From contig LDJB01000001.1 in NCBI GenBank assembly GCA_001028815.1, forward strand, positions 1,029,550 to 1,093,549: a DNA stretch of 64,000 nucleotides. The letters are read 5' to 3'. The first letter of the stretch is position 1, and every line of letters starts with the position of its first letter. Below are positions 2,978 to 7,697 of this stretch, one piece after another. The translations under genes and the position numbers were made by a program. The stretch comes from Peptococcaceae bacterium 1109. GTDB taxonomy: Bacteria > Bacillota > Limnochordia > Darwinibacteriales > Darwinibacteriaceae. The notes beneath the pieces are model-generated. The model was not told the DNA's origin, did not search any database, and worked only from the letters and a program-made list of their open reading frames with translations.

Positions 2978-4342
2978 CTAAGAGACGGCTTGTTCGGTTT
3001 TCTCCGCGTGGCGGCCGTTCCACAGTTGGTCAGCCACTTCTCCCCACTGGTCCGCGGCTTCCCGGCATTTTTCAGCTAGTGACTCCGCATCCTCGTTGTC
3101 CCGCCGCTGAGTTGAGTAAGCACCGGCGGTTTTCACCATAGCCACCAGTTCATCTGGGTTATCCAGTAAGGGGCAGGGCCTAAGGTGGTTGGGGTTGAAG
3201 GGATGCCGTTCCCGGTACTGCATAAAGAGGGGCGACGTAAGGGCTTCTATTAGGGATACATCGCGAATGTTCACGTTGGAGTAGTGTATAAAGGCGCAGG
3301 GCTCCACATCTCCATGGGCATTAATGTGCAGATAGCGGCGTCCTCCAGCGATGCAGCCGTTAACGTACTCCCCGTCATTCCAGAAATCCAAGACGAAAAT
3401 GTCCTTGCTTGCCCGGTACTCCCGAACCTTTGCATACATAAGCTTGCGCTGCTCAGGCGTTACTAAGAGTCCAGGCTGTGCGTTTCTCCCCAATGGGATA
3501 TAGGTGAAGAACCAGCCGAAGAAAGCTCCCTTGTCAATCATGGCATCAATAAACTGCTCCGATGCGACTTCCTCAGTGTTGTACCGGTGATAGCACGCGG
3601 AAAACCCGAAGGGTGCTCCCGCGTCCCTTAAGAGGTCCATCGCCCGGACCACGTGGGCATAGCTCCCCTTCCCCCGGCGAAAGTCGTTATCATCTGCGAA
3701 GCCCTCCACGCTGATTGCGAGCATGATGTTGCCTGCATCCGCAAGCTCCTGCGCGAGCTCCGGAGTAACCAGGGTAGCGTTGGTGAATGCGCAGAAGATG
3801 CAGTCTTGGTGTTTCCGAGCCAACTTCAGAATATCATCGGCACGGAGGAGGGGTTCGCCACCTGAGTACAGGTAGAAGTATATCCCCAGTTCCTTGCCTT
3901 GCGTGATGATACTATCAAGTTCTTCCAAGCTGAGGTGCCCGCCTCGCTCGTACTCCTCTGCCCAGCAGCCCTTGCAGCGCAAGTTGCAGTCGGAGGTGGG
4001 ATCCATCAAGATGGCCCAAGGCACATTGCACTGCAGCTCTTCCTCCATTTCCTGCCGCCTTTGCACGCCAATGAGCGCCGCATTGAGCAAGAAACTGGTG
4101 ACAAACTTCTCCATAACTCCCGGTGACAATTGGGCAAAGGCCCTTTCTGTCATGCGGCGCCAGTTGTTCTCAGGGTCCTGCCACACCTCCTCCACCTGGC
4201 AAAGGATCTCCCGATGCTCTGGCACACGGGCAAAGGGTTTGAGCAAGTTCACCAGCTTGCCGATGTTCTCCCCAGGGTTCCGTCCAACGTAACGCAGGCT
4301 CTCCCGCACGGCAGCCGCCTGCAGGCTGTGTTTCAGCGCCAT
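2978..4342 (-). CDS. Radical SAM protein with SPASM-like C-terminus
   Basis: A 454-residue radical SAM enzyme. The 4Fe-4S cluster motif CxxxCxxC is at Cys119, Cys123 and Cys126 (DCNLRCKGCW), followed by the YSGGEPLL block that contacts SAM. The C-terminal third has extra cysteines (NGCIAGG, VEPCAF, RPCPLL) that resemble a SPASM-type auxiliary cluster site. The first 105 residues form a helical N-terminal extension. Such TetR-paired radical SAM proteins are common in Firmicutes but their substrate is unknown. The start at 4342 has a GGGAGGAG site. A TetR-type palindrome at 4388-4411 lies in its promoter region, downstream of the interrupted tetR gene, so expression was probably repressed by that TetR and may now be deregulated. 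Confidence 0.88.
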   Translation of the reverse strand: MALKHSLQAAAVRESLRYVGRNPGENIGKLVNLLKPFARVPEHREILCQVEEVWQDPENNWRRMTERAFAQLSPGVMEKFVTSFLLNAALIGVQRRQEMEEELQCNVPWAILMDPTSDCNLRCKGCWAEEYERGGHLSLEELDSIITQGKELGIYFYLYSGGEPLLRADDILKLARKHQDCIFCAFTNATLVTPELAQELADAGNIMLAISVEGFADDNDFRRGKGSYAHVVRAMDLLRDAGAPFGFSACYHRYNTEEVASEQFIDAMIDKGAFFGWFFTYIPLGRNAQPGLLVTPEQRKLMYAKVREYRASKDIFVLDFWNDGEYVNGCIAGGRRYLHINAHGDVEPCAFIHYSNVNIRDVSLIEALTSPLFMQYRERHPFNPNHLRPCPLLDNPDELVAMVKTAGAYSTQRRDNEDAESLAEKCREAADQWGEVADQLWNGRHAEKTEQAVS

Positions 4343-4387: not shown

Positions 4388-4411
4388 CCTTAACTAACCG
4401 TTCGGTTAAGG
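4388..4411. promoter_or_regulatory. TetR-type operator before radical SAM gene
   Basis: The imperfect palindrome TTAACTAACCGTTCGGTTAA lies 46 nt upstream of the radical SAM start. It shares the ACTAACC...GGTTAA core with a second site at 7634-7652 before the tetR gene itself. Shared operators of this form are typical of TetR regulators that repress themselves and a neighbour. Confidence 0.7.
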
Positions 4412-4439: not shown

Positions 4440-4916
4440 CTAGCTTTCCTTTAGGGCCGATACCACGAAATGCCGCTCCTGTGCACCTCTCACCAGATTC
4501 TCCAATGAGCGGATGGTCAGTTCCTTCATACTTTCATCACTTAAGAGAGTCTTGGCTTTATATTCATCATAGTAAGCGGCAATGCTGATCAGGGGAATCC
4601 ACGAAAAGAAGAACTTGAAAAAGATGGTGTCCTCGTTGTAGTCAAAATCCTCATCAGTACTCTGCAAGGTGCGGTAAATGGGGTTGCTGGGATCTTTGTC
4701 CATCAGTTTCATCAAGCGGAAGAGGATGCTCTTGTGTTTGCCGCTGCGCAGGGATTCGAACATCAGGATGCGTACTACGGCCCTGTTGGTGAGGAGGTAG
4801 TCTACAAGCTTTTCGTAGTACCTACCCATGTGCATCTGGAAGTACTCCATGGCTTCCCCGTCGGCGAACTCAAAGCGTTCGCCCACAATATCTAAACGGC
4901 CTGCCTTGATCATGGG
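4440..4916 (-). pseudogene. tetR C-terminal fragment (split by IS21)
   Basis: This fragment holds the ligand-binding, all-helical part of a TetR-family regulator (from PMIKAGRLDIVGERF onward, about 158 residues). The gene was cut by the IS21-family element at 4917-7370. If the element and one CATGGG copy are removed, the N-terminal fragment at 7371-7616 joins this one exactly in frame (…SYIVPM / IKAGRL…) and restores a protein of about 238-252 residues. The in-frame Met codon just inside the element could start a short peptide, but it would lack the DNA-binding domain. The fragment is otherwise undamaged, so the insertion looks recent. Confidence 0.85.
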
Positions 4917-4987
4917 TGTTTTTGGCAATCAAAAATTCCAGAGCATGGCAGTGTAGACGTACATAGCACCCTGACCTGAATCGTTGT

Positions 4988-5740
4988 CTAGTCCATCTGA
5001 GTTGTCTGTGAAATACCTTCTGCTCTAGCAGCGATGGCTTCTCTGTAGCGGTAGCTGGGGCCTGAGAAGCCAAGAATATAGGCATGGTGTACCAGCCGAT
5101 CAATTATGGCTGCAGTCAAGCGATCATCACGGAAGATTTCGTTCCAACGGCCGAACTCTGAGTTAGAGGTAATTATGACGCTCTGTTGCTGGTAGCTGTT
5201 CGAGATCACATGGAATAACAGTTGCGACGAGGTTTTGTCTATCGGAATGTATCCCAACTCGTCCAGGATCAGCAAGTCGAGTTTCAGCAACTGCTCCAGA
5301 GTCTTGCCCAGGTGACCTGTGCGGTGTTTTTCAACTAGTTCCGTCACCAGGTCAATTGTCCGGTAGAAGCGCACTCGTTTCCCTTGTGTGCAGGCCTTTA
5401 CTCCTAGTGCCGTGGCCAAGTACGTCTTTCCAGTCCCCACAGCACCGAGACAGAGGATGTTCTGCTTCTTCTCAATGAAATCAAGGCTGAGCAGTTGTTC
5501 TTTGTCAAAGCCCTTCGGCCAAGAGATGGGATCAAACTTGTAATCGTCGAATGTTTGTATGACCGGAAACTTCGCTTCCTTGATCAGCCTTTCTATGCGC
5601 TTGTCTTCTCTGTTTTTCAAGGCTAGCCTGAGGACGTCGGTTAAGTACTGTATTTCGTTCTCAAAAGCCACTTGCGATGCCAGCTTCGTTAAGTCACTCA
5701 ACTTAAGCTGTTTGCATATGGCAGCCAGTTCACCTACCAT
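4988..5740 (-). CDS. istB: IS21 helper ATPase IstB
   Basis: A 250-residue AAA+ ATPase that assists the IstA transposase in target selection and strand transfer. The Walker A motif is GAVGTGKTYLATALG near residue 98, and Walker B is LLILDELGYIP near residue 155. The N-terminal helical region matches IstB/DnaC-like proteins. The start overlaps the end of istA by 11 bp, the usual IS21 arrangement with coupled translation. Length is normal for the family and no damage is seen. Confidence 0.95.
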   Translation of the reverse strand: MVGELAAICKQLKLSDLTKLASQVAFENEIQYLTDVLRLALKNREDKRIERLIKEAKFPVIQTFDDYKFDPISWPKGFDKEQLLSLDFIEKKQNILCLGAVGTGKTYLATALGVKACTQGKRVRFYRTIDLVTELVEKHRTGHLGKTLEQLLKLDLLILDELGYIPIDKTSSQLLFHVISNSYQQQSVIITSNSEFGRWNEIFRDDRLTAAIIDRLVHHAYILGFSGPSYRYREAIAARAEGISQTTQMD

Positions 5741-7265
5741 GGGCTTCCACCCCCAACAGATCGTAGATCGACAAATCTGGCCGCCACTGAGCTACCTCTG
5801 AGGGAGTCCATGGTTCCTCCAGTGGGCTCGGCTCCGCCGCCGCTGTGCTTGCAAACAGAGCGGCAAGCATCCTTAAGCTGTTGACGTCTGTCCTGCCGTC
5901 ACTTACCGCTTGTTCGGCGGCTTTCACAGCAATATCCAGAGAGTACTCCCGCAGGATGGTGACGACAGCGATTATTCGCTGACGTCGCTCTTTTAGGGTC
6001 GGTGCGGACAAGATGTAAGTCTTCAGCGCATCAGGCAAGGCTCTCAGGTATACTGCTCTCTCTGCTGCACGTGGGCGATTGATGAAGATCTCCAGTTCCG
6101 CTGCCCAGTCGATGTTCTCGGCTTTCTGGTAGTAGACCCTTTTCACAGTGTGTAGCACTGCCTCGCCATGCCTGTCTAGGATCTCAAGATGATCTCCATA
6201 TGCCTTGATCAGGACCCGCGTTCCCGGTCGTACCTGAGGTACTCTGTAGAGCTGCTCGTCCACTACCACCTCTCCGTACTTGTTCACCGTACGGACGAAC
6301 ACCTGAAAGATGTCCAACGGCAGCTCAGGCAGTGGTAGTAGTTGTTTTGCGTCATCTTCCCACAGTTCTCGGATCAAAGTGCCTTTGGTGTAGTGTTCAC
6401 GCTCCCAGTCTGCCATCATCGCTTCGTGAAGGGTTCTGTTGAACTCGGCCAGATCGTCTAAGATCGGCGGAGGGCTGAAGTTATTCCGGCGAACATAGCT
6501 AATCTTTCTTTCTACATGGCCTTTCTCTTGGCCCTTTCCCGGATTGCAGAACTCGGCCTGGAAACGGTAATGCCACTGGAATGTCTTGAACAGTTCTGTC
6601 AACGAGCGTTCTTCCGCTGAGAGGATCTTGGCCACAATCGCAGAATCGTTGTCGAACCTGATTACCCTCGGCACACCGCCGATCATCTGGAAAAGCGTCT
6701 GCAGGCCATGCAGGAAGCAGGTACCATTATCAGCAGGAAGAACTATACACACTTGAGCATTACTATACGGGAAGGACAGAATAAGCTCATGGTAGGTCTT
6801 CCGCTGGTTATCCGAGATGGCTTGAAACTCTCCCAGATCAACTTGAGCTTCTCCGGGTCGGTGTTCAAGCCTTACGACCTGTTCTTTCGCTCCTGAGCGC
6901 ATTTCGTTCTTTTTCTTGCGAACATAATCGCGGACGGTACGATCAGAACCTTGGTAGCCAATCCTCAGGAGGTCTTCAAACATCTTCTTGGCAGTTCGCC
7001 GCTGCTTCCGAGGTAACCGCTCATCCTCTAGGAGCCAGGCTTCTATGTACTCCTCGAAACCCTCCATGGCGGTTTTCTTTCTGGCTCGCCGGCCTCTTTG
7101 CCTAAGATCCACGCTGCCATCGGCGTACTTCTTGGCCGTCTTCCAATCACACTTCACTCTGGCGGCAATTTCGCTGATGGATGCACCTTCGACGTCACGG
7201 AGATGTCTGATATAATCGATCTGAGTCACTGATAGCACTCCTTTGAAATGCCTCCTTACAAACAA
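5730..7265 (-). CDS. istA: IS21 transposase IstA (DDE integrase fold)
   Basis: A 511-residue transposase. Residues 12-50 form a helix-turn-helix (EGASISEIAARVKCDWKTAK). An rve-type DDE core follows, with the first Asp in HRPGEAQVDLGEF and the second in VIRFDNDSAI; the Glu lies in the GQEKGHVERKISYVRRN region. The C-terminal domain has the beta-barrel-like stretch seen in IstA (DEQLYRVP...VLIKAYGDHLEI). The gene begins 105 bp inside the right end of the element and overlaps istB. It appears functional. Confidence 0.95.
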   Translation of the reverse strand: MFVRRHFKGVLSVTQIDYIRHLRDVEGASISEIAARVKCDWKTAKKYADGSVDLRQRGRRARKKTAMEGFEEYIEAWLLEDERLPRKQRRTAKKMFEDLLRIGYQGSDRTVRDYVRKKKNEMRSGAKEQVVRLEHRPGEAQVDLGEFQAISDNQRKTYHELILSFPYSNAQVCIVLPADNGTCFLHGLQTLFQMIGGVPRVIRFDNDSAIVAKILSAEERSLTELFKTFQWHYRFQAEFCNPGKGQEKGHVERKISYVRRNNFSPPPILDDLAEFNRTLHEAMMADWEREHYTKGTLIRELWEDDAKQLLPLPELPLDIFQVFVRTVNKYGEVVVDEQLYRVPQVRPGTRVLIKAYGDHLEILDRHGEAVLHTVKRVYYQKAENIDWAAELEIFINRPRAAERAVYLRALPDALKTYILSAPTLKERRQRIIAVVTILREYSLDIAVKAAEQAVSDGRTDVNSLRMLAALFASTAAAEPSPLEEPWTPSEVAQWRPDLSIYDLLGVEAHGR

Positions 7266-7370
7266 GTTGCTTAGAGGCTTATTTCCAGGGTGCTATGCGG
7301 TGACTCCTTTTTCTACCCAACTCTGGAAAATTAGACTGCCATTTTCGCCATTCTTATACTACCAAAAACA

Positions 7371-7616
7371 CATGGGCACTATGTAGCTGTTGATAAACTC
7401 CATGGACGAGGCAGAAAGCTTTGCCAAGACTGCTTCCAGGAGCGTATCTAGAATGTCTTCCTTGTTTTTGAAGTAGTAGTAGATCAGGGCCTTGTTGACT
7501 CCAGCGGATTCCGCAATCTCGTTCACCCGCGTTGCGTCAAAACCTTTACGGGAGAACAGATCTATTGAGGCACTTAGAATCCTTTCCTTTGCATCCTCTG
7601 TGTTCAGTGTATTCAA
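7371..7616 (-). pseudogene. tetR N-terminal fragment (DNA-binding domain)
   Basis: This is the DNA-binding half of the TetR regulator split by the IS21 element. The helix-turn-helix reads VNEIAESAGVNKALIYYYFKNKEDIL, a canonical TetR_N motif. I prefer the TTG at 7616 as start because AGGAG lies 8 nt upstream; the ATG at 7658 would translate through the operator palindrome. In the present sequence translation runs three codons into the element (CFW) and stops at 7359. A peptide of about 85-99 residues containing only the HTH could still be made and might bind DNA weakly. Confidence 0.85.
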
Positions 7617-7633
7617 ACTGTCCACTCCTGTCT

Positions 7634-7652
7634 CAACTAACCAGTTGGTTAA
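7634..7652. promoter_or_regulatory. TetR-type operator before tetR (autoregulation)
   Basis: CAACTAACCAGTTGGTTAA is a palindrome nearly matching the operator before the radical SAM gene. On the minus strand it lies between a likely promoter (TTGACA at 7697-7690 region, then CACAAT near 7660) and the AGGAG ribosome site of tetR, the usual position for autorepression. Confidence 0.65.
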
Positions 7653-7679
7653 TCCCATTGTGCCATAATGTGGGACAGT

Positions 7680-7697
7680 TTGTCAATAACTTGACAA
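7680..7697. promoter_or_regulatory. Inverted repeat overlapping tetR -35 region
   Basis: TTGTCAA-taac-TTGACAA is a perfect 7-bp inverted repeat. Its minus-strand copy contains the TTGACA hexamer proposed as the tetR -35 box, so it may be a second operator or simply a bidirectional -35 element between tetR and the divergent catE-like gene. Confidence 0.4.

Follow-up and report, generated by a model that had tools for sequence, protein, structure and literature searches.

Insertion sequences of the IS21 family duplicate a short stretch of their target, i.e. 4–8 bp. They are organised in two genes and carry a −10 box in the left end and a −35 box in the right end, which together give a promoter at tandem junctions, as described in the part of PMC10122671 that deals with these features. 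Inactivation of a repressor gene by insertion, with derepression as the outcome, is likewise a known effect of transposition, according to the part of PMC9330008 that deals with such effects. Here, we describe a complete and structurally intact IS21-family element of 2454 bp that interrupts a tetR gene upstream of a gene for a radical SAM/SPASM protein (rSAM) in the window, i.e. the whole stretch of 64 000 nucleotides of DNA that was analysed (Table 1). The nearest solved relative of the element is IS5376 (IstA, 8q4d/8b4h; IstB, 8q3w/8q4d). The sequence-only reading had placed the insertion at 4440–7658; these positions delimit the tetR frame, whereas the element itself spans 4917–7370.

Table 1. 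Features of the interrupted tetR–rSAM locus, in window coordinates
Feature	Coordinates	Strand	Evidence
rSAM, radical SAM/SPASM protein gene, 454 aa, downstream of tetR in the pair	2978..4342	-	Domain and profile matches
Operator 2 (predicted), TTAACCGAACGGTTAGTT	4392..4409	-	Palindrome; between tetR and rSAM
3' part of interrupted tetR, ligand-binding/dimerisation part	4440..4916	-	77 % identity with the uninterrupted congener gene
Target-site duplication CATGGG, istB-end copy	4911..4916	.	Repeat match; 6-nt flank overlap on G001
Complete IS21-family insertion sequence	4917..7370	-	Tips, length, gene content, ends; istA-istB co-directional with tetR and rSAM
istB, helper ATPase, 250 aa, Walker A GAVGTGKT	4988..5740	-	NF038214; 11-nt overlap with istA
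istA, IS21 transposase, 511-codon frame from TTG	5730..7265	-	NF033546; alignment to IS5376 IstA
5' part of interrupted tetR, 96 TetR codons, then CFW and a stop from the element	7359..7658	-	TetR_N domain
Target-site duplication CATGGG, istA-end copy	7371..7376	.	Repeat match; 6-nt flank overlap on G001
Operator 1 (predicted), TTAACCAACTGGTTAGTT	7635..7652	-	Palindrome; directly downstream of the −10 of the tetR promoter
Sigma-70-like tetR promoter, TTGACA-18-CACAAT	7657..7686	-	Promoter scan; conserved in relatives

Membership of the IS21 family, as proposed from the letters alone, is borne out by both gene products, i.e. the istA product scored 237.4 bits against NCBIfam NF033546 (IS21 transposase; cut-off 160) and the istB product 245.2 bits against NF038214 (IstB; cut-off 200), the latter also reaching 224.7 bits against Pfam IstB_IS21 (cut-off 24.1). 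Against Pfam Mu-transpos_C_2, the istA product scored 24.1, under the cut-off of 27. Residues 26–356 of IstA align to the IstA of IS5376 (E 6.5e-24), with D143, D205 and E252 falling on its catalytic positions (DDE triad), and IstB aligns to the IS5376 IstB with an E of 3.2e-42. The tips of the element (TGTTTTTGG at 4917 and CCAAAAACA ending at 7370; 9-bp perfect) start with TG and end with CA, as do IS21-type terminal inverted repeats, and the internal motifs ATGGCAGT, TTCCAGAG and CATAGCACCCTG are common to both ends, as expected of IS21 multiple terminal repeats. A tandem arrangement with a 2- or 3-bp junction would place 17 or 18 nt between the element's TTGCCA and TAGTAT, a match to the consensus only. 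The target duplication noticed earlier holds as well: CATGGG is repeated on both sides over exactly 6 bp, none of the other lengths tried (2–5 and 7–11 bp) matching, and this fits the target-duplication length of the family. No named element matching this insertion sequence was found in the plasmid records compared.

Its own genome (G000) contains one full copy plus five or more further copies or copy ends. Four ends of 50–153 bp are 100 % identical and each adjoin an N run, and a 28-base end is located close to where contig C1 ends. The 6-bp edges match in two gapped copies, i.e. CAGGGG on C5 (gap of 2330 N) and GACCAG on C3 (gap of 2385 N), both gaps being near the element length and both duplications being read from gap edges, and two others (C2, gap 3763; C3, gap 25) showed no matching edges. 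Since the full copy is accompanied by further ends, two of them with matching edges, the element is multi-copy and probably recently active; the identity of the copy ends likewise suggests recent transposition. Matches were found in 13 of 198 genomes, G000 included, the only one with a complete copy being G000. In G048, which belongs to another family, contig C51 opens with 120 bp of the istA end (L084 1–120; 100 % identity), reflecting either recent transfer or cross-contamination, and the matches in the remaining genomes are partial and 64–84 % identical, except for one exact match of 23 bases. Isolated 32-bp istB-side ends with 97 % identity, the rest of the element being absent, were observed in G000, at L006 1501–1532 and L007 1501–1532, and are either relics or ends of a related element. 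No match to the element was found in G001, a genome of the same genus and the only congener searched.

Joining the flanks with one copy of CATGGG gives an open TetR frame of 252 codons (…IVPM-IKAG…), and the in-frame rejoining of tetR claimed in the sequence-only reading is thereby upheld. The comparison with an uninterrupted tetR that it had proposed agrees: the corresponding gene of G001 is intact, and window 4459–4916 aligns to C59:97–554 (73.1 %, BLASTN) and window 7371–7691 to C59:549–869 (72.3 %, BLASTN), i.e. the flanks are contiguous and overlap by exactly 6 nt (549–554), the pattern that an empty site and a 6-bp duplication would give and one that fits a clean insertion. The VOC and TPP-enzyme homologues are kept on the same contig of G001, and those of rSAM, of the CPBP protease and of a neighbour that we take to be YeiH-like are kept on C26; tetR and rSAM each lie at the end of one of these two contigs and are presumably adjacent in G001. 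A total of 20 TetR relatives were extracted (one further partial match, L059, was left out). Of these, 18 are uninterrupted, with 236–278 codons: one is a paralogue in G000 and 17 come from as many other genomes. The remaining two are truncated by a contig end or an N gap.

The 96 residues retained in the 5' remnant comprise the DNA-binding domain and helix 4 and score 67.1 bits against TetR_N (HTH). An AlphaFold2 model of L095, an intact relative (nine sequences; mean pLDDT of 77.2), has the TetR family features, i.e. an N-terminal TetR_N HTH and an all-helical C-terminal domain, and matches TetR structures, with modest TM values by query length (0.26–0.53 among the matches listed). Because the junction after residue 96 coincides with the end of helix 66–98 in this model, the ligand-binding and dimerisation part is detached. 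Given how TetR proteins generally work, the 96-residue remnant is probably inactive. The earlier claim that the insertion removes the repressor is therefore well supported, everything past residue 96 (past helix 4 in the L095 model) being lost to it.

A profile search of genome contigs with an rSAM alignment yielded 513 confirmed loci, the best 80 of which (L095–L174) were used; the relatives with names in this set are mostly anaerobic Bacillota, with many MAGs. The rSAM product itself reached no NCBIfam cut-off (e.g. NirJ2 TIGR04055, with a best score of 106.5 bits against 500). Among the best 80 of the 513 loci, 38 have a TetR-like gene on the same strand at most 400 nt upstream; contig ends truncate some of the remaining 42. 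The commonest neighbour clusters of rSAM in these best 80 are TetR-like (28 and 9 loci), followed by an ABC ATPase-like cluster (17/80). In seven relatives among the best 80, the gap between tetR and rSAM is only 19–28 bp, as in operons.

Both operators were said to remain after the insertion, and both are indeed present. The exact pattern TTAACCNNNNGGTTAGTT occurs at 8 sites in 60 genomes (6 genomes), all at tetR–rSAM loci by coordinates, compared with 2 occurrences of the reversed control in 60 genomes. Within the 38 tetR-bearing loci of the best 80 of 513, an operator of type A (TTAACCNNNNGGTTAGTT, ≤2 mismatches) precedes tetR in 5 and occupies the gap in 5, with 4 loci having it at both positions, and the corresponding counts for type B (TGACANNNNTGTCA, ≤1 mismatch) are 21, 9 and 7; shuffled controls gave at most 0.3 loci on average. 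The operators thus appear to be real, conserved and specific to tetR–rSAM loci. An operator-like site (type A or B, ≤2 mismatches) is found in 19 of the 28 gaps of at least 70 bp vs none of the 10 shorter ones (best 80 of 513 loci), with thresholds that were picked after viewing the table. In the search for a wider regulon in G000, up to two mismatches gave 7 sites vs 13 for the reversed control, and only two exact operator sites can therefore be claimed there. A second TetR–rSAM pair of G000 lies on C3 (L068 9163–11016), its tetR being cut by an N run and its gap holding one two-mismatch operator site.

Since the promoter ends in the region of 7658 and operator 1 would lie inside the first codons, ATG 7658 is an unlikely start of tetR, and translation probably begins later, at a TTG near 7616 after AGGAG. 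Residues 1–20 of the L095 frame have a mean pLDDT of 32–35. The conserved N-terminal peptide LTN(R/W)LVE of these TetR frames corresponds, at window 7616–7658, to operator DNA read as codons, and the annotated starts of such tetR genes may be too early.

The position of the rSAM promoter is central to what the insertion does. In shuffles preserving base composition only, a sigma-70-like promoter was detected at 0.05 upstream of tetR in 28/38 loci vs 3/29 tetR–rSAM gaps (gaps below 60 nt left out), again among the best 80 of 513. The upstream test failed in 10 of these 38 loci, including L097, whose failure is probably due to a frame that begins far ahead of the likely start. The tetR promoter was equalled by 0–4 of 200 shuffles in all seven regions tested, and the gaps by 85–200 of 200 in all eight tested; no sigma-70-like promoter stood out in the window gap, where the best score was equalled by 195/200 shuffles. 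Given these counts, transcription of rSAM probably relies on the tetR promoter, and the element would lie between the likely promoter and rSAM, since the promoter precedes tetR, none is seen in the gap and the spacing is operon-like. Our preferred reading is that there is one promoter only, ahead of tetR, and that operator 2 would serve as an auxiliary or roadblock site. A gap promoter that is weak or not of the sigma-70 type may escape a consensus scan, and the very presence of operator 2 hints at regulation there. No terminator-like site was found inside the element on the minus strand, and one weak terminator-like site lies just past tetR (4441–4428), in a scan whose total was no more than chance. 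A hybrid promoter formed by the outward −35 of the element towards tetR and rSAM was rejected: no −10-like hexamer is present at 16–18 nt, and across the 769 nt between istB and rSAM the best score was no higher than that of 114/200 shuffles.

We consider it rather probable that the insertion, which breaks tetR, derepresses its promoter and leaves rSAM to unregulated read-through. A multi-copy IS21 element has transposed by the usual route of the family into tetR, duplicating 6 bp; the truncated TetR could not dimerise and would be inactive, and because of this the autorepressed tetR promoter would be permanently on. It would then feed istA-istB, and rSAM, reached only by read-through of ~3.3 kb instead of ~0.86 kb, would most likely lose its regulation, at a level that may exceed the repressed one or fall below the fully induced one of a relative. 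The earlier suggestion that rSAM may be constitutively expressed is retained in part, i.e. the repressor is lost and the operators are kept; it assumes a promoter at operator 2, however, and no gap promoter stands out and the element is interposed.

If rSAM did have its own operator-controlled promoter at 4392–4409, loss of TetR would make it constitutive and the element would be irrelevant to its transcription. Operator 2 is retained and is conserved in the gaps of relatives, those carrying it being the longer ones, but the shuffle result for the window gap (195/200) and the low count of gap promoters (3/29 vs 28/38) lead us to regard such a promoter as unlikely. A polar knock-down, in which rSAM expression is lowered by the 2.45 kb element together with a poorly translated tetR remnant of ~0.5 kb, would suit a promoter only upstream of tetR, the gaps of 19–28 bp in seven of the best 80 of 513 loci and the lack of a hybrid promoter at 16–18 nt from the outward end of the element. 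However, istA and istB are on the same strand with no terminator-like site there, so that read-through from the derepressed promoter is possible, and we hold this outcome to be doubtful. The insertion might also be without consequence if the intact TetR paralogue of G000 (L069 8877–9596, contig C5) bound the same operators and kept the promoter repressed: it has 239 aa, is 68 % identical over the C-terminal part, shares the promoter layout and has an operator of similar sequence, TTGACCAACCGGTCAGT. Still, 1873 bp of C5 match G005, which belongs to a different genus, at 99.1 % identity, so this contig may be mis-binned or recently transferred. TTGACCAACCGGTCAGT differs from the window operators at several positions, and any cross-binding is putative; such rescue is quite improbable.

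Little weight is also given to the idea of a self-activating insertion, i.e. that by landing co-directionally the element destroyed the repressor of the promoter that now reads into istA-istB, turning a host circuit into a constitutive driver of its transposase and helping identical copies to spread. Finally, gap filling could have misplaced the element, given that four other copies lie at N gaps and only the window copy is fully assembled. There is no N in the window, however, and two junctions, an exact duplication and two gene halves with a 6-nt overlap on the congener would not come from misjoining, which makes an artefact hardly conceivable. With read-through as the preferred outcome, rSAM expression may have changed in either direction, up or down, since read-through, polarity and the paralogue all bear on it.

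While an IS21 element inactivating a regulator is routine, the conserved TetR–rSAM module with its two operator types is more interesting than the insertion itself and a usable lead toward the signal to which this uncharacterised rSAM enzyme responds. A search of paper listings found nothing on such a module, and its absence from print is not claimed. The insertion provides a clean natural knock-out of a TetR which, judging by the conserved operators, seemingly controls only one adjacent rSAM gene, and a comparison with the congener, whose tetR is uninterrupted, could reveal the role of the regulator.

As in the cases covered in the relevant part of PMC9330008, a local transcriptional repressor is lost by transposition and derepression is expected. 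Unlike in those cases, the target gene heads the transcription unit of the regulated gene itself and the element is interposed in it, so that the effect on rSAM may have either sign. The element is distant from known IS21 members, its best IstA match in plasmid records being 40.4 % identical. Nevertheless, it shares with the family and with IS5376 the istA-istB order with overlap, the DDE triad, the IstB ATPase, the TG...CA tips, the repeated terminal motifs, and the short target duplication; a putative −35-like hexamer at one end and a putative −10-like hexamer at the other, matched by consensus only, would agree with this. With all testable features present, it is best regarded as a member of the IS21 family and as nothing of a new kind.
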